The translations under genes and the position numbers were made by a program. The notes below the pieces were generated by a model. The model was given only the letters and a program-made list of their open reading frames with translations, did not search any database and had not been told where the DNA came from. Positions 8,934-50,497 of a DNA stretch of 64,000 nucleotides are shown in pieces. This stretch comes from a virus. The DNA lies in the IMG/VR virus record IMGVR_UViG_3300028920_000002, positions 122,724 through 186,723 of that record; one strand, written 5' to 3'. Positions within the stretch are counted from its first letter, which is position 1; the number at the start of each line of letters is the position of its first letter.

Positions 8934-10031
8934 ATGAAAGAATCTCAGAAGCGAGCGCGTCAGGATGTGGTGGCAACTGCATTGAAGACATTGCTCGCCA
9001 ACGAGGGCAGCGGGCTCACCCGCAAGACCTTCTTTTTACCGACTAGCTCGACTCCATCGGAGGCCGAGATTGAGGCGTGCAAGGGCAGGCGTTGGCAGAA
9101 GCCTGTTCTCGATAGGCTCGTGGACAAGGGCCTCTTGGTGGTGGCCAAGGTCGGAGACGATATGGGCTACGGCCCTGGCGACAGAACCCTCATCCGCAAA
9201 GTGCTTCGTGACTACGAGGATGATGGGCTGCTGCTCGCCTCTCTGGTCTTTCCCAACGAGGTTCGTGGGGTCGAGCTGCCCAGCGTTCGAGATGCTCTCG
9301 AAGAGGAAGAAGCTCTGACACGCCAGCATCAGGTGGACGACGTTTTGGACAAGGTCACTGATACCAAGGCGATGGATAAGATGGGCAAGGACCTTCAAGA
9401 GGCCATCGACAAGCACGGACCGGGTCTCGTGTTGGCTGATGCTCTGACCCGGTTCACCTTGGCTGTGAACGAGCAGCACACTACTGCTCGGGAGTCCTAC
9501 AACAGACTCGTGCTGTCTATGGAGAGTATGGCCAAGGCGTACGGGGACCACACCAAAAGGATGGAGGCCATGCTCTCTGCACAGAGCGCCCGTACAGGTA
9601 CGGTCGAGACCAAGGTGGGTGGGTACAACAAGCGCCTGGACGCTCTCGAGAAGCGTGAGCAGGAGCACACTGCTGCCATTCACCGGTTGGTCAACATCCT
9701 TCAGGAGTACCACGTTCGTGAGAAGACCAACGGTTCGGGCTTCGACGTCAGCGAGGTAGCAGAGAAGATGGCGGCTGCAGTGGCAGTAGAGGTGAAGCCC
9801 CTACTTGACGCCAACACCGAGAACTTCTCGAAGGTCACAGCGCTCATGTACGCCCTGCAGGGCAGCACCGAGACGCTGGCTGGTCACTTGAAATCGAAGG
9901 AGGCGGACAGGCTCTCTGACCTCAATCGTAGGTTGGAGGCACACATCAAGGACGGGCAGGAGTTGCAGGAACTTCTGTCTGAGGTATGGCTCAAGATGGA
10001 TGGAGACAAGGATGGCCCAGCGACTGAGTGA
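8934..10031 (+). CDS. Winged-helix-like and coiled-coil protein
   Basis: This protein has 365 residues. The first 110 residues have the helix/strand pattern of a small DNA-binding-like domain, ending in DRLVDKGLLVVAKVG, which resembles the recognition helix and wing of a winged helix; this is inferred from pattern only. Residues 130-365 are almost entirely helical with heptad-like spacing. The ATG at 8934 has AGGAGGA at 7 bases; the frame is open further upstream but that stretch lies in the structured element. It overlaps the start of the next gene by 20 bases, so genes 8934-11417 form an operon. Role unknown. Confidence 0.72.
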   Translation: MKESQKRARQDVVATALKTLLANEGSGLTRKTFFLPTSSTPSEAEIEACKGRRWQKPVLDRLVDKGLLVVAKVGDDMGYGPGDRTLIRKVLRDYEDDGLLLASLVFPNEVRGVELPSVRDALEEEEALTRQHQVDDVLDKVTDTKAMDKMGKDLQEAIDKHGPGLVLADALTRFTLAVNEQHTTARESYNRLVLSMESMAKAYGDHTKRMEAMLSAQSARTGTVETKVGGYNKRLDALEKREQEHTAAIHRLVNILQEYHVREKTNGSGFDVSEVAEKMAAAVAVEVKPLLDANTENFSKVTALMYALQGSTETLAGHLKSKEADRLSDLNRRLEAHIKDGQELQELLSEVWLKMDGDKDGPATE

Positions 10032-10896
10032 GCTGGTCGCCCGCTACAAGCGAGAGTCAGACAAGCTCTCACAGCGGGAACTGGCCGAGCTGGAACGAGA
10101 CATCTACGAAGCCTACTGCTTCGAGAACCCCAGGAGGCCGAGTGACGGCCCGTTCAGCCGTACTCACCGCAATACGCTGGTGGAGCTGCTGGGCATCACT
10201 TCCGGCTACGCAGACAACCGCCTCTACTTGCTGAGGTGTGGGCGAGCCGCAGAGCCTCTTTGGAAGCTTGTGGATGAGGGTAAGTACACCCTCTCTGCCG
10301 TGGTCATGCTGCTGCGCAATGCGCGCAAGGAGGCTCAGAGCAAAGGCGTCTCCCTGCCCGACGTGCTGGAGCGCATGTTGGCGGAGCCGAAGAAGCGCAA
10401 GTTCAACCGCAGCAATGGTTCTGCCAAGCCGCTCAATGCCCAGGACGCCAAGGACTTCGAGGAAGAGGCAGCCGAGTTGATTCGGGCCTACGTTGCTCGG
10501 AGAGCTGTCGACCTGGACGAGCTCGAGCGGGACATGCTGCTCACGAACTTCCTGGGCATGCTGCGCATCGCTCATGAGGAGTTTCGGGAGAGCCTGCAGC
10601 GGGAGCAGCGCAGCCTTCGTCAGCAACGACGAGAACGAGAAACGATTGGTAAGGCGCTGTTCCTACGCGCCTGTGAAGTCCTGAGCTTGGACCTGCCCTA
10701 CGGCAAGGAGCTCAGTGACAAGAAGAGGGACTCGATATTGAAGCTGGTACGTAGGCGTAAAGCTGAGCGAGTCCGTGAATTGCATCCCGACCTCAACCCG
10801 GGTCAGACGACCACGAGTGAGGTCATCCAAGAGCTCAACGCTGCGAAGGAGGCGGGCGACCTCTTGGTGAAGTACTTCAGCCAAGGAGCAAGGTAA
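10012..10896 (+). CDS. Helical protein with a C-terminal J-domain-like segment
   Basis: This protein has 294 residues. The N-terminal half contains short helices that could form a helix-turn-helix (about residues 50-110). A central charged coiled-coil-like region follows (130-220). The last 55 residues include RRRKAERVRELHPDLNPG followed by a helix ending in NAAKEAGDLL. This matches the helix II, HPD loop and helix III of DnaJ J-domains, although helix I is weak. A J-domain would recruit host DnaK. ATG 10012 is preferred to ATG 10000 because GGAG lies 6 bases before it. Stop and next start overlap (TAATG). Confidence 0.68.
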   Translation: MAQRLSELVARYKRESDKLSQRELAELERDIYEAYCFENPRRPSDGPFSRTHRNTLVELLGITSGYADNRLYLLRCGRAAEPLWKLVDEGKYTLSAVVMLLRNARKEAQSKGVSLPDVLERMLAEPKKRKFNRSNGSAKPLNAQDAKDFEEEAAELIRAYVARRAVDLDELERDMLLTNFLGMLRIAHEEFRESLQREQRSLRQQRRERETIGKALFLRACEVLSLDLPYGKELSDKKRDSILKLVRRRKAERVRELHPDLNPGQTTTSEVIQELNAAKEAGDLLVKYFSQGAR

Positions 10897-20026: not shown

Positions 20027-20328
20027 AGAAGGTGACGTGGGAAGCCACGACTGAGCGCATGTACGTTCAGCTAGTGCAGGAAGTACCCGAGGAGAAAGAC
20101 CTGACCATGTCCAACGGGATGATGGCCATGACTGATTCGTTTCCTACTTCCTACCTCATGATTGGCAAGCCGGGGTCCAAGGAGCGCACGCGTGTGGAGG
20201 GACCTGACGCCGAGCTGCTGCTTCTGGCGCTCGGCAAGGTGATGTCCATGAGGCCCGGGGCCGGGATGCATACTATGGGTCGCATTCCCATGCCGCCGGG
20301 TACTAGCCCCTTCGGCTCTGTAGGCTAG
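20023..20328 (+). CDS. Hypothetical Met-rich protein, 101 residues
   Basis: ATG 20023 overlaps the preceding stop, with GGAAG upstream. Twelve of the 101 residues are Met. The first part looks beta-rich, the centre has a Leu-rich helix (AELLLLALGKVM) and the end is a Gly/Pro/Met tail. No family is recognised. It is the last gene before the tmRNA promoter. Confidence 0.6.
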   Translation: MKKVTWEATTERMYVQLVQEVPEEKDLTMSNGMMAMTDSFPTSYLMIGKPGSKERTRVEGPDAELLLLALGKVMSMRPGAGMHTMGRIPMPPGTSPFGSVG

Positions 20329-20347
20329 CAAAGTAGGCGGGGGCTGA

Positions 20348-20365
20348 GGTATAACAGGGGTGGAG
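20348..20365 (+). promoter_or_regulatory. GGTATAA-type promoter of the tmRNA
   Basis: GGTATAACAGGGGTGGAG. TATAAC ends 31 bases before the mature 5' end at 20386, leaving a short 5' leader that RNase P would remove. Confidence 0.55.
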
Positions 20366-20385
20366 TGAGAACCACTTCACTCTTT

Positions 20386-20752
20386 GGGCCTGAACTGGTT
20401 TCGACGTGGAGGAATCAAAGTAGTTGCGTGCAGGCGGTGCTCGACCCGCCTTGACCAATCGAGCAACGGCAGTTGCCAACGACAACGCCACCCCCGCTCT
20501 CGCAGTCGACAAGGCTGCGTGAGCCGTTCGCCTGGGTAGGAGCCCAAGTACCCCAGGGGACGTCATCAGAACATGGGTGGACAGCGGGAAAGACTGCTGA
20601 CTCTCAGGAAAGACTGAGTGGTGGAGGTGCCTACCAACCCCCGAGGCGCCAATCGGTTGCTGGATGAACCAAAACCAATCGCCAGCTACGCACGTGAACG
20701 AGACTACTGAGTGAACTTCGCGGACCCGGGTTCGATTCCCGGCGGGTCCACC
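20386..20752 (+). ncRNA. ssrA: Phage-encoded tmRNA
   Basis: One-piece transfer-messenger RNA of about 367 bases. The 5' end GGGCCTGAACTGGTTTCGAC has the tmRNA signature TTCGAC. The 3' end has a T-arm (CCGGG-TTCGATT-CCCGG). The 7-bp acceptor stem pairs 20386-20392 with 20743-20749 and contains the G3-U70 pair that marks the RNA for alanine; the discriminator A is at 20750. Only CC of the CCA end is encoded, so nucleotidyltransferase must add the last A. The tag frame is at 20475-20522. It would rescue stalled ribosomes, perhaps after host mRNA decay. Host tmRNA is normally sufficient, so a phage copy is uncommon. Confidence 0.93.
20475..20522 (+). other. tmRNA tag reading frame
   Basis: From the likely resume codon GCC (20475), preceded by AGTT as E. 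coli tmRNA has AGTC, the frame encodes ANDNATPALAVDKAA and then TGA. The ANDN start is typical of tags. The end KAA keeps the Ala-Ala read by ClpXP but lacks the usual LAA or VAA. A resume codon at GCA 20463 would add ATAV. Confidence 0.85.
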
Positions 20753-20754
20753 GG

Positions 20755-21390
20755 GTTCTGTCAGGTGTGGGTAAAGGAGGGGATGTAGCGCTCCCTCCCA
20801 GCAAACCTCGGGAAGTGGTGCACCACTTTCTGCTGTTAGGCTGCCTGACAGAGCACGAGACTTGTCCCCATCAGTCTCGCAGTATTCTGGTGGGGGCACG
20901 ACGGAAGGTAGGAAACACGTCAGTTAGCTGCTGTCGCAAGCCCTACTGAAAGTGAGGTCGCTAGGAGGACATCCTGGAGAAGGCCCTGTAGGCAATTAGA
21001 GCTCAATGGTTCGCCCAGTCCTCGAAAGCCGACCTTCTCCCTGTTGTGTCGTACGGTGTACCTCGGGCCCCATCAACACAGGGTATGGTGTGGGCCCCAA
21101 CTCTATCCCGGGTACTAGATACCCCGGTGGGTAGGTCAGCGAGACGCTCTTGGTAGCTGACCAACAACGGTTCTCTCTTTTGGGAGGCCGACAAGGAGCC
21201 GGGGGTCAGGTGAAGACGGTTAGCCTGACCACCGAACACCATGATGTGACCGCTCCCCAGCAGGGTTTGCACGCTTTCCCCACTGATGTTAGAAGTGTGC
21301 GCCCCCGACGTCCCGCAAGGCGTCGGGGGCACCAGCAGCGGGTTCGATGCGGCCTACCCCCCAAGGCTCACGGGCCCGCTGCCTTTTCTT
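20755..21390 (+). ncRNA. Candidate large structured RNA downstream of tmRNA
   Basis: About 640 bases with no plausible gene but many helices: 20755-20765/20844-20854 (11 bp, enclosing hairpins at 20776-20798 and 20811-20830); 20856-20862/20873-20879 (7 bp), whose 10-base loop pairs with 20889-20898; 20976-20983/21033-21040 (8 bp); 21065-21070/21092-21097; 21108-21127; 21134-21140/21156-21162 (7 bp); 21204-21210/21224-21230 (7 bp); 21301-21310/21321-21330 (10 bp); and 21335-21342/21375-21382 (8 bp), followed by CTTTTCTT as terminator. The stems span local and long-range pairs, as in large phage RNAs such as GOLLD or ROOL, which also lie near tRNA-type genes. I cannot assign it to either family. 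It is probably co-transcribed with the tmRNA, 2 bases upstream. Confidence 0.7.
21335..21390 (+). terminator. Terminator of the tmRNA/structured RNA unit
   Basis: GCAGCGGG / CCCGCTGC (8 bp) encloses 32 bases and is followed by CTTTTCTT. It ends 8 bases before the extended -10 box of the next gene. Confidence 0.6.
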
Positions 21391-21397
21391 AGCTCTC

Positions 21398-21406
21398 TGC
21401 TAGACT
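21398..21406 (+). promoter_or_regulatory. Extended -10 promoter for a leaderless gene
   Basis: TGCTAGACT with 6 bases to the GTG at 21413. It directly follows a terminator, as expected for a new transcription unit. Confidence 0.58.
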
Positions 21407-21412
21407 GGCGTC

Positions 21413-21793
21413 GTGGCCATCAGCGAAAAAGAGCAGGGCGAGGACAAAGCCCGAGAGGACTTTCACTTCGTTGAGCGTAGGGCAGTCAACAACGCCTACG
21501 CCGCCCTTGTGGGTCGGCAGTACACAGAGTCGCAGCAGGCGTTCACCTTCGAGGAGGCGTTGGACGCCCATATCGAAGCCATCGAGGGGAAGGATGACCC
21601 TCTGCATCCCAACGAGCTCAACCGGGTGAGGCGCATTCGCAACGAGCTCAATGCCGCTGTGGATGCCATCAAGGCGCTGCCTCCCGAAGCGTTCGTGCTC
21701 GAGGCCAGCGAAGAGGACGTCAACACCGAAGAGGTCCTCGAGGAGCGCACCGCCGCCAAGGAAGCGGCGAATGAGCAAGCCTTCGGCTCCTAG
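21413..21793 (+). CDS. Hypothetical acidic helical protein, 126 residues
   Basis: It starts at GTG 21413, 6 bases after TGCTAGACT, with no ribosome-binding site. The product is almost entirely helical and rich in Glu and Ala, with the helix pair RRAVNNAYAALVGRQYTESQ and HPNELNRVRRIRNELNAA. No family is recognised. It heads the unit that carries the second peptidoglycan hydrolase. Confidence 0.68.
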   Translation: MAISEKEQGEDKAREDFHFVERRAVNNAYAALVGRQYTESQQAFTFEEALDAHIEAIEGKDDPLHPNELNRVRRIRNELNAAVDAIKALPPEAFVLEASEEDVNTEEVLEERTAAKEAANEQAFGS

Positions 21794-21811
21794 GGTATAA
21801 GCACCCCAGTA
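21794..21811 (+). promoter_or_regulatory. GGTATAA-type promoter motif
   Basis: GGTATAAGCACCCCAGTA. TATAAG ends 9 bases before the ATG at 21811, so the mRNA would have almost no leader. The right half of the family motif is not conserved here. Confidence 0.42.
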
Positions 21812-46507: not shown

Positions 46508-49500
46508 GTGCCGGACCGCGAATTCGCCCCAGGAATACCGGCAAGTCGCGCGGTGCGCGCTCTGCCGAAGTTCAAGAAGCCTCAAACCTGGGAGATGGGG
46601 CTTCACCGCCATCAGGCTGAGCGCGCCGGCGAACACTTCGACCTGAGGTTAGGAGACCCATCCACCGGACGCGCTCATTCCTGGGCGCTGCGCAAGGGTC
46701 TGCCAGGCCCTGGGGAGCGGCGCCTGGCGGTGCAGCAGCCTACTCATACCCTGGCCTACATGGATTTCAAGGGCCCCATCAGTGAGGGCTATGGCAAGGG
46801 CAACGTAGAGCTCGCACAGCGGGACAAGACCGAGGTACTTCGCTCCGGTGACAACGAGGTCCGGTTCAACGTCTACCGAGGCAAGGAGAACCAGGAGTTC
46901 GCCCTCAGGCGCATGAAGAGCGCTGGTAACTGGTTCATTCAGAACGTCACCCCCAGTCGTAATACAGGTCCAGCCCAGAAGCTGCCTTCGAGCAAGCCGA
47001 AGTACAAACTCGTGGCGCCTGAGAAGCTGGACCCGGACGACCCGAATACGGAGATGCAGGCCAAGCTGGATGGGGCGCACGTGCTCTACCAGTTCAAGGA
47101 GCCGGGCAGTACGCCCAGGGTCTTCAGCTACCGACCTACCGAACGGGCTACCGGAATCATCGACCACACCCAGAAGCTCGAGGGTTTTGGCAAGCTCAGG
47201 ACGCCCAAGGCGCTCGCCAACACCACTCTGCGCGGCGAGCTCTACGCCGTGGATGAGCAAGGCAAGGCTCTACCGGCCGCTCGGGTCGGAGGGATTCTGA
47301 ACGCGGGAGTTTGGAAGAGTCGTGAGAAACAGAAGCAAGAAGGCCGGCTTGTCCCAGCCGTCTTCGACGTTGTCCAGCATCAAGGCAAGAACGTCGAGGA
47401 GCAGCCCTACGCCGAGAAGAAGAGAATACTCTCAGCGGCAACTCGAGCAGCTCCTTGGCTACAACGGCCTCGGACTGCGACCACGCCCGACGAGAAGCGA
47501 AGACTGATTGCCGACATCCAGGAGGGGCGGGAACCCTCTACAGATGAAGGCGTCGTCGTTTGGCACAAGGACAAGCCTGTACCCGCCAAGAGCAAATTCC
47601 AGGAAGAGAGGGATGTGTACGTCCGCCGCATCTTCGCCGAGGCCGGTGAGAAGCGGCGGGGCACGATGGCCGGTGGCTTCGAGTACAGCACGACGCCGAA
47701 GGGCCCCATCGTCGGGCGCATTGGGACTGGTTTGTCTCATGCCATGAAGAAGGACATGCTCGAGAATCCCTCGAAGTATGAGGGGCTGCACGCCCGCGCG
47801 AAAGCGCTCAAGACGCCGAAGGGTTACGCTCCGCGCAACCCAGTGTTCAAGAGCTTCCACCTCGACCAGGACATCCCGGAGGACGCGAAGACTGCCATGA
47901 AGAAGACAGCAGGCGCCGCCACTGAGTTCGTAGCTGGAGTAGACCCGTTCGGTGTCCTCTCTGGGAGGCTCGGTCAGGAGGCAGAGCGGGAGCAGGCGAG
48001 TGCGGCGCGCCATTACCGAGCCAGGGCGCTCGGGGCCGCCGGCGGTATGGTCGGCAGTGGGCTCATGGTGCCCTCTGTGGTGAGCGGCATCGTCCAGGGC
48101 GCGCAGGCTGCGGGCGGCGGTGGGGGCGGCGTACGGCAGCGTCTGGCACGCGGAGCGGCGGGTTTTGCCCAGGGCTTTCAACGACCCGTTCGAGGACTGG
48201 CCGACGCGGCCAGGACCACCAAGTTCCTCGGCCGAGCGGCCAGGACGCCCGGCGGTTCGACGGCTACAGCCGGTGAGCTCGCCGCTATCCAGAGGACTCT
48301 GAAGGAGACGCCGCTGGGGGCTCTGGCGCCCCACGTGGCCGGTGCCAAGGCTACTCCAGAGGCCACTGGCGAGGCGGGCCAGAGGATGCTTCAGGCCCTA
48401 CAGCGCTACAAGGCGACCGGCAAGCTCCATTTGAGCCCGGAGGAGGCGGCGAAATTCCATGGCCAGGCTAAGGGCGAGACCGCCAAGTTCATGGCCGGCT
48501 TGGGCCTCGGTGGCGCGGTAGGGGCTGGAGGGGCAGTCGCGCAGTACGAGAAGGGCAGGTCAGCGGAGAAGGGTATGCAGCAGCGACTCGAGGAAAAGAA
48601 GGCTGCGGTTCGAGGCTACTACAAGGGCCAGCCGGCGAGTCCTAGCACGGTCAAGTTCAAGACTGAGTATCAAGGCATCCCTATACATGTGGACCGACCA
48701 CGCGGCTTCATCATGATGGGTGAGGACGACAAGGGGAACTCTTGGAAGCGTCGCTACAAATACGACTACGGCTTCATCCCCAAGACCCTGGGCGGGGACG
48801 GTGATGGCCTCGACGTATTCATCGGCCCTCAGAAGAAGGCTGAACATGCCTACTGGGCGGTGCAGAAGAAGTCGGATGGCAGCTTCGATGAGTACAAGGT
48901 CTTCTTGGGCTTCGACAGCCGGGATGAGGCGGCAGCGGTCTACCGTAAGCACATCCCGAAGAAGCTCCTCGCTGGTCTGCTCACCATGCGGGTGGAGATG
49001 ATGAAGGCTATGCTTGGTGGCCAGGAGCCTGCAGAACGGATGCAGAAGGCGGCGATGGCGTTCGGTTTCGTCGATGAGCTGCAGAAGCTGGCCAAGATTA
49101 AGACCGAGCTCGAACCCCATCAGAGACGCGTGGTGGAGAGGATGAAGAAACAGCCGGGCTTGGTGGTAGCCCATGGGCTTGGCTCGGGAAAAACACTTAG
49201 CTCCATCGCGGCGCAGGACGCGTTGGGGCTACCATCCACTGTCATCGTTCCTGCATCTCTGAAGGCCAACTACGAGAAGGAGAGGGAGAAGCACATCGTC
49301 GGCACTTCTCCTGAAGCTGCGCTATCCACTCTGCAGCGTATCGCCCGTGCTGGTGAGGCACCGGCATCGCCGATGATGATTATCGACGAGGCCCACCGGG
49401 CGCGCGAAATTGGCACTAAGACCTACAAGGCTCTGAAAAATAACATCGCTGAGAAACGAATGCTGCTGACGGCTAGCCCCTTCTACAACCGCCCGAGTGA

Positions 49501-50497
49501 CATCGCCCCGTTGGTCAACATCGCCGCGGGCGACCAGGTCCTCCCAGGCGACCCCCAAGCGTTCAAGCAGAAGTACATTCGGGAGCGCACAATCAAGCCT
49601 GGGCTCATCAACAGGATTCGTGGCGTCAAGCCTGGGGTGGTGGCGGAGCTGAACCCTTGGCAGAAGAAGGACCTCAGCAAAGTGCTGCGAGAGTGGGTCG
49701 ATTACCACCCGAACAACCAAGAGGGTTACCCGCAGGTGCAGCGGGAGACCGTCGAAGTCCCGATGACGTCGAAGCAGCTCAAGCTGTACGACGGCCTCAT
49801 CGGTCAGGCGCCTCCGTGGGTAGCCATGAAAGTCAAGGCCGGGCTGCCACCATCGAAGCAGGAGTCTAAGGACCTCAATGCGTTCATGAGCGCCGTACGG
49901 CAGGTTTCTCTCTCGACTAGAGCTCACGCCCCAAAGGAGCCACCGCAGGAGCCCAAGATTGATATGGCCTTCACGCGTATGCATCAGGGGCTCGAGGGCA
50001 ACCCCAGGTTCAAGGGCCTGGTCTACTCGAACTACCTCGAATCGGGCATCAAGCCCTACCGTGAGCGACTCGAGCGTGCTGGCATCCCATACGGCGAGTT
50101 CACTGGTGACATGAAGAAGAAAGAGCGCGACCAGATGGTGCGCGACTACAACGAGGGCAGGAAGAAGGTGCTGTTGGTGAGCTCGGCCGGTGGCGAAGGT
50201 CTGGACTTGCAGGGCACGCGCCTGATTCAGATGATGGAGCCGCACTGGAACGCCGAGAAGCTCCGGCAGGTGGAAGGTCGTGGCATCCGCTTCAAGAGCC
50301 ATGAGCATCTGCCCAAGAACGAGCAGAGCGTGAAGGTCGAGAGCTACTTGGCCACGCGCCCGAGGGCAGGCATACTCGAGAAGATTCGGCTCAAGAAGCC
50401 TGGTGGCGGTGCTGATGAATACCTGACCACGTTATCGGGGCAGAAGGAACAGCTCATCGAGCAGTTCCGCGGTCTCATGAAGGAGGATGCAGCATGA
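46508..50497 (+). CDS. LigD phosphoesterase / ATP-dependent DNA ligase / InPase-like / SNF2 helicase fusion
   Basis: One 1329-residue protein. Residues 30-110 match the 3'-phosphoesterase domain of LigD (GEHFDLRLGD, HSWALRKG, FKGPISEGYGKG). Residues 165-375 match ATP-dependent DNA ligase: KLDG (catalytic Lys186), RGELYAVD, VFDVV and DEGVVVWHK. Residues 505-535 and 660-680 are Gly/Ala-rich and hydrophobic. Residues 716-816 match phage InPase-like domains (YDYGFIPKTLGGDGDGLDVFIGP as two adjoining parts, and DEYKVFLGFDS). FGFVDELQKLA (852-862) precedes a SNF2-type helicase: GLGSGKT (890-896), DEAH (960-963), LLTASP (986-991) and QVEGRGIR (1254-1261). It could seal and remodel DNA ends while removing pyrophosphate, or be a precursor cut by phage proteases. 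The start follows a leaderless-type promoter. Confidence 0.85.
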   Translation: MPDREFAPGIPASRAVRALPKFKKPQTWEMGLHRHQAERAGEHFDLRLGDPSTGRAHSWALRKGLPGPGERRLAVQQPTHTLAYMDFKGPISEGYGKGNVELAQRDKTEVLRSGDNEVRFNVYRGKENQEFALRRMKSAGNWFIQNVTPSRNTGPAQKLPSSKPKYKLVAPEKLDPDDPNTEMQAKLDGAHVLYQFKEPGSTPRVFSYRPTERATGIIDHTQKLEGFGKLRTPKALANTTLRGELYAVDEQGKALPAARVGGILNAGVWKSREKQKQEGRLVPAVFDVVQHQGKNVEEQPYAEKKRILSAATRAAPWLQRPRTATTPDEKRRLIADIQEGREPSTDEGVVVWHKDKPVPAKSKFQEERDVYVRRIFAEAGEKRRGTMAGGFEYSTTPKGPIVGRIGTGLSHAMKKDMLENPSKYEGLHARAKALKTPKGYAPRNPVFKSFHLDQDIPEDAKTAMKKTAGAATEFVAGVDPFGVLSGRLGQEAEREQASAARHYRARALGAAGGMVGSGLMVPSVVSGIVQGAQAAGGGGGGVRQRLARGAAGFAQGFQRPVRGLADAARTTKFLGRAARTPGGSTATAGELAAIQRTLKETPLGALAPHVAGAKATPEATGEAGQRMLQALQRYKATGKLHLSPEEAAKFHGQAKGETAKFMAGLGLGGAVGAGGAVAQYEKGRSAEKGMQQRLEEKKAAVRGYYKGQPASPSTVKFKTEYQGIPIHVDRPRGFIMMGEDDKGNSWKRRYKYDYGFIPKTLGGDGDGLDVFIGPQKKAEHAYWAVQKKSDGSFDEYKVFLGFDSRDEAAAVYRKHIPKKLLAGLLTMRVEMMKAMLGGQEPAERMQKAAMAFGFVDELQKLAKIKTELEPHQRRVVERMKKQPGLVVAHGLGSGKTLSSIAAQDALGLPSTVIVPASLKANYEKEREKHIVGTSPEAALSTLQRIARAGEAPASPMMIIDEAHRAREIGTKTYKALKNNIAEKRMLLTASPFYNRPSDIAPLVNIAAGDQVLPGDPQAFKQKYIRERTIKPGLINRIRGVKPGVVAELNPWQKKDLSKVLREWVDYHPNNQEGYPQVQRETVEVPMTSKQLKLYDGLIGQAPPWVAMKVKAGLPPSKQESKDLNAFMSAVRQVSLSTRAHAPKEPPQEPKIDMAFTRMHQGLEGNPRFKGLVYSNYLESGIKPYRERLERAGIPYGEFTGDMKKKERDQMVRDYNEGRKKVLLVSSAGGEGLDLQGTRLIQMMEPHWNAEKLRQVEGRGIRFKSHEHLPKNEQSVKVESYLATRPRAGILEKIRLKKPGGGADEYLTTLSGQKEQLIEQFRGLMKEDAA

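Follow-up and report, generated by a model that had tools for sequence, protein, structure and literature searches.

The DNA that follows the tmRNA gene of this environmental phage may encode a non-coding RNA, specific to the lineage, that forms the 3' tail of the tmRNA transcript, a reading to which we assign a probability of roughly 45%; that the tail is itself functional is likewise put at slightly less than even odds. The window, i.e., the whole stretch of 64,000 nucleotides that was analysed, corresponds to positions 122724-186723 of a virus record of 186,723 bases (~187 kb), and within it 660 bases (20753-21412) separate the tmRNA from the next gene, here called gene X (21413-21793). Non-coding sequence, a promoter motif, a terminator-like hairpin and well-folded 5' and 3' ends together make a non-coding RNA beside the phage tmRNA plausible. 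The features are summarized in Table 1.

Table 1. Features of the tmRNA region in the window, and of a conserved element in related contigs
Feature	Position	Strand	Remarks
Phage promoter motif upstream of tmRNA	20328-20364	+	GCAAA 20328-20332, GGTATAACA 20348-20356, GTGGA 20360-20364
tmRNA gene, tag ANDNATPALAVDKAA	20386-20752 (end 20752/3)	+	ARAGORN; Rfam RF00023, 104.4 bits, E 9.8e-40
Candidate non-coding RNA / tmRNA trailer	20753-21390	+	No coding signal; largest gap; MFE z ~-4 on +, ~-2 on -
5' domain: junction with hairpins 20776-20798 and 20799-20843, closed by the long-range stem 20755-20765/20844-20854	20755-20854	+	
Hairpin 20856-20862/20873-20879, 10-nt loop 20863-20872 complementary to 20889-20898	20856-20898	+	
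Two local hairpins, 21134-21140/21156-21162 and 21204-21210/21224-21230	21134-21234	+	Perfect 7-bp stems; local z -2.0
Perfect 10-bp G+C hairpin (21301-21310/21321-21330)	21301-21330	+	Local z -2.3 to -4.6
Terminator-like hairpin 21335-21342/21375-21382 (8 bp), then CTTTTCTT	21335-21390	+	
Possible leaderless promoter, TAGACT, 6 nt upstream of the gene X start codon (GTG)	21401-21406	+	
Gene X (126 aa), a conserved gene of the phage group, no assigned function	21413-21793	+	Coding score 0.81; in 19 of 28 related records
~300-nt conserved element of related phages	L141 4042-4346; L160 1201-1505 (-); L076 870-1156 (-)		

With a simple gene caller built on a hexamer coding model, no non-coding gap of the record was larger than that at 20753-21412. 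The model was trained on long ORFs, and both strands of the gap were scored with it; every ORF of 20750-21412 received a negative score (-0.08 to -0.80), compared with 0.4-0.8 for the neighbouring genes. The translated frames of the block had no convincing relative among the fetched loci, and a coding explanation was rejected on these two grounds. A search of PHROGs with a 109-aa antisense ORF of the block returned nothing. The roughly 640 bases without a credible gene reported in the preliminary description are thus borne out on both strands, and the block (20753-21390) is very probably untranslated. Its sole Shine-Dalgarno-led start, AAGGAGGGG directly before an ATG-TAG start-stop (20774-20788, ATG at 20783), is a strong Shine-Dalgarno-like match but probably due to chance because of the short spacing.

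Both ARAGORN and Rfam place the tmRNA so that the block adjoins its 3' end, as had been described; this 3' end carries no encoded CCA. The word GG[GT]ATAA, which forms part of the motif upstream of the tmRNA, occurs 31 times in the record. Eighteen of the 31 copies are intergenic, while intergenic sequence makes up 6.8% of the total and control words have 0-1 intergenic copies each; several copies have GCAAA upstream and (G)TGGA downstream. A phage-wide promoter-like motif of the form GCAAA - ~15 nt - GG[GT]ATAA[GCA]A - ~3 nt - GTGGA was thus recognized, concentrated between genes, with examples in the window at 20328-20364, 21794, 8110 and 8218. The next GG[GT]ATAA copy on the same strand after that of the tmRNA lies before the gene at 21811. 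Because the tmRNA bears the phage's own promoter motif, a transcript of ~20360-21390 (tmRNA plus ~640-nt tail, ~1.03 kb) is likely, and on this sequence evidence the block is probably transcribed together with the tmRNA.

Regarding secondary structure, the block contains eight perfect stems (7-10 bp, loop up to 130 nt). Shuffles that preserve dinucleotides have 5.1±2.3 (p 0.15), and the same number is reached in 17% of the ordinary 648-nt windows of the phage. Every stem named in the preliminary description is present where it was placed, including the 11-bp stem with a single G-T pair (20755-20765/20844-20854; 9 bp perfect, 20757-20765/20844-20852), but their number does not exceed chance; in a G+C-rich phage, many perfect stems spotted by eye are near what chance gives. 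On the + strand, but not on the - strand, the whole block has a lower MFE than every shuffle (z -3.8 to -4.5 and -1.9 to -2.0, respectively), which speaks for a tail RNA. When the last ~105 nt, with two strong G+C hairpins, are dropped, z is only -1.7, for which 540-nt windows of the phage (48 control foldings) give a background mean of -0.86 (sd 1.09) and -0.80 by strand. The folding excess comes mostly from these last 105 bases, and the rest is near ordinary coding windows of the phage. Local folding was measured in 110-nt windows against shuffles. Stability was highest at the 5' end (20751-20860, z -3.0, with none of 100 shuffles as stable) and in 21231-21400 (z -2.3 to -4.6), a weaker patch was seen at 21141-21250 (z -2.0), and 20900-21110 folded no better than the average shuffle. 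A clear excess over chance is confined to the 5' domain (20751-20860), for which MFE and centroid folds are nearly identical, and to the 3' end; dense structure over the full length of the block is not supported.

The 10-nt loop 20863-20872 pairs with 20889-20898 over its full length, G-U pairs included. A comparable loop-tail match was found in 2 of 400 shuffles and in 2 of 190 phage windows, rates that are optimistic because the match had been noticed before it was tested. The full match is therefore present and rare, whereas the pseudoknot suggested for it, as drawn with a 10-bp second stem and a 0-nt connecting loop, would need some pairs to be open. The loop-tail helix also serves as the MFE alternative to the hairpin of 7 bp, so that the element might be a switch or else a partial pseudoknot.

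If the tail RNA is real, the promoter at 20328-20364, proposed from the motif enriched between the genes of the phage, would start a transcript of ~1.03 kb, and tmRNA processing, to judge from tmRNA biology, would cut at ~20753 and free the tail. By sequence and predicted folding, the tail would consist of a folded 5' domain, the loop-tail interaction, a loosely folded middle and the terminator-like end at 21335-21390. By analogy with further large phage RNAs encoded next to tRNA genes, it might then work as an RNA while the phage infects its host, perhaps in connection with ribosomes or translation. That it represents a new class of large phage RNA derived from a tmRNA precursor, in which one cut would yield the rescue RNA and a ~640-nt folded partner for the same translation programme, is unlikely. 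GOLLD, ROOL and the phage K RNAs are large phage RNAs beside tRNA genes without established function; one that is joined to a tmRNA would link such RNAs with ribosome rescue, with one transcript giving two products.

The block could instead be a spacer without function that turns over fast within an island of stable RNAs, made of recombination leftovers between tmRNA/tRNA-type genes and ended by an ordinary terminator, which we consider somewhat less probable than a lineage-specific RNA; the two explanations are close to each other. The block has a G+C content of 60%, and its internal folds would be what such sequence gives; the near-chance stem number and folding of the body count for the spacer and against the tail RNA. 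A spacer is less easily reconciled with the block being the largest gap in a compact record, and with the 5' domain and the loop-tail match each being rare (~1%). Moreover, cmscan of 20740-21420 reported no tRNA remnant (RF00005) at E<=10, and ARAGORN reports only the tmRNA.

Comparison with relatives bears on both explanations. A total of 51 related viral contigs were gathered by portal protein; a tmRNA above the cut-off was present in six of the 39 related records searched, and further ones were found later. In G000, G002 and G021, gene X lies next to the tmRNA, and the slot between them measures 660 nt (as in the window), ~800 nt and ~960 nt, respectively. The several hundred bases in G002 and G021 favour the tail RNA. 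In G002 and G021, which are among the nearest relatives, the slot is filled by tRNAs, small ORFs or another RNA-like element, as a spacer would predict: a 34-aa Cys-rich ORF, tRNA-Gln and tRNA-Thr in G002 and small ORFs followed by ~470 non-coding nt in G021. No sequence resemblance to the block of the window was found in these two slots. Such differences in slot sequence among relatives that are about equally distant count against the tail RNA. In its favour, the non-coding parts after the tmRNA folded more stably than shuffles in G021 (z -3.6) and G005 (z -2.3), but not in G002 (z -0.4).

Homologues of the block, which the preliminary description had proposed to collect, were found neither by blastn nor by covariance models nor via neighbouring proteins, and the conservation that would argue against a spacer was thus not seen among the relatives searched. 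Using blastn, the block had no match in the INPHARED phage collection and only chance matches of 14-24 nt in the 39 related records. Sequence comparison among the regions downstream of the relatives' tmRNAs yielded no homologue, and covariance models of 20753-20902 and 21111-21250 found no credible match in 570 kb of relatives. A search for closer relatives by neighbouring proteins returned only G001 and a distant 427-kb phage, and nothing from GTDB genomes. The nearest relative is G001, whose baseplate protein is 58% identical; its contig stops just short of the locus, ahead of the slot, and no tmRNA in it scored above the cut-off. With well-folded ends, an ordinary middle and no relative carrying the same sequence, the block might represent a new RNA family, but proof of one is lacking. 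One weak covariance match (L017 10272-10418 of G001, 18.9 bits, E 0.004) was not convincing and was set aside because this stretch is full of large perfect hairpins (MFE z -11 and -12 on the two strands). The same contig carries a very long perfect hairpin in two copies at 10510-10720 (CTCCATGCTAGGCCCGT/ACGGGCCTAGCATGGAG), the second of which differs by a paired change, from CTCC/GGAG to TTCC/GGAA.

A conserved element of ~300 nt was detected in the tmRNA region of G021, G047/G048 and contig 3300037424_001200. A run of 51 nt (columns 3-53 of alignment A4) is identical in all of them, although it forms part of a reading frame, which would normally show silent changes. Double changes were seen in six of 86 predicted pairs, and several other pairs are broken. 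Like the block, the element occurs in related phages downstream of the tmRNA and is partly non-coding, but it differs in overlapping small ORFs. Model R3, built from its 5' half, recovers all its members and has no match in the window at E<=1, and the element is therefore a different thing from the block.

At the 3' end, the hairpin 21335-21382 with the following CTTTTCTT is likely a terminator, judging from its sequence, and lies where one had been put in the preliminary description; the consensus terminator scan, which allows loops of 3-8 only, omits it. This hairpin, 30 nt upstream of gene X, would also suit a long untranslated leader controlling gene X, in which the hairpins before 21413 would decide whether transcripts begun at the tmRNA promoter end there or continue into gene X and the genes for lysis and baseplate. 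Such a leader is distinctly unlikely. Its proposal gains from the ability of 21126-21135 to pair with 21353-21362 within the terminator-like hairpin, and from G021, which likewise has a large hairpin and a T-rich tail just upstream of gene X; however, gene X has its own -10-like box near the start, as do its counterparts in G021 (TAGGCT) and G002 (TACGAT), and in most relatives it follows ordinary genes without a long leader. Words of the form TANNNT, 3-8 nt before starts that come after a gap, were observed eight times compared with 1.3 expected.

A divergent GOLLD or ROOL RNA, as had also been suggested, would fit the block's size, its phage origin and its position close to a tRNA-type gene (PMC12286853) but is very improbable, given that neither model matches (in runs without a positive control) and that the middle of the block is not well folded. 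GOLLD (RF02032) was absent from the cmscan matches in the window (gathering score) and in 20740-21420 (E<=10), and its model matched none of 31 phage records in a run without a positive control; ROOL (RF03087) had no covariance match in the window, in 20740-21420 or in the 31 phage records, again without a positive control. The block is not to be filed as GOLLD or ROOL. The other Rfam models likewise gave no match to the block above threshold; the best sub-threshold match was Scr3202 at 21298-21386 (29.7 bits, cut-off 52), covering the two 3' hairpins, and was treated as chance.

Both GOLLD and ROOL are large, cage-forming phage RNAs near tRNA genes without known function (PMC12286853), and GOLLD has been reported inside tRNA clusters of mycobacteria (PMC6582537, PMC12286853). 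The block resembles GOLLD in its phage/prophage setting, in the size of the predicted RNA and in its position near tRNA-type genes, starting at the tmRNA 3' end; many GOLLD RNAs, in contrast, are longer than 800 nt and show conservation of their 3' region, and the block has no covariance match to them. With ROOL it shares size (ROOL model, 574 positions), phage/prophage origin, nearness to tRNA islands and predicted pseudoknots. The long non-coding RNAs of Staphylococcus phage K were likened to GOLLD/ROOL for their place beside tRNA genes and their abundant transcription (PMC9241854); expression was measured there, whereas that of the block is predicted from sequence, and blastn of the block against the phage collection revealed no sequence relation. 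Being non-coding, several hundred nucleotides long and adjacent to a tmRNA, the block falls within the loose kind of phage long non-coding RNAs beside tRNA-type genes. Location is the one basis on which a GOLLD/ROOL-like role may be considered for it.

Further observations were made in this phage and its relatives. Long gaps without a called gene (730-890 nt) occur in G024 and G041 (L107 3955-4847; L142 1106-1834 and 6481-7238). G001 has three tandem tRNA genes (L017 8900-9510, +), each with an insertion of ~50-60 nt in or near the anticodon loop, as identified by eye. The inserts have a common motif, ACTTGTC ... GACCGA, followed by GGGTTATC in two of the three, and look like very small introns or mobile RNA elements; of the three genes, Rfam calls only the third (9310-9436) and ARAGORN none. 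In G044, a tRNA with a predicted four-base anticodon (ACTC; L152 8315-8400) lies between tRNA-Arg and tRNA-Tyr. A tRNA pair called Phe(AAA) is present in this phage (L011 15052-15205, genome 115052-115205) and in G001 (L017 10018-10171), with 9-nt anticodon loops containing TAAAG in both. Shortly downstream of the pair are a conserved non-coding hairpin stretch and a gene that, read by eye, resembles peptidyl-tRNA hydrolase 2. Finally, positions 46508-50497 of the window encode a 1329-aa fusion with matches to LigD phosphoesterase, ATP-dependent DNA ligase (weakly), inorganic pyrophosphatase and SNF2-type helicase domains.
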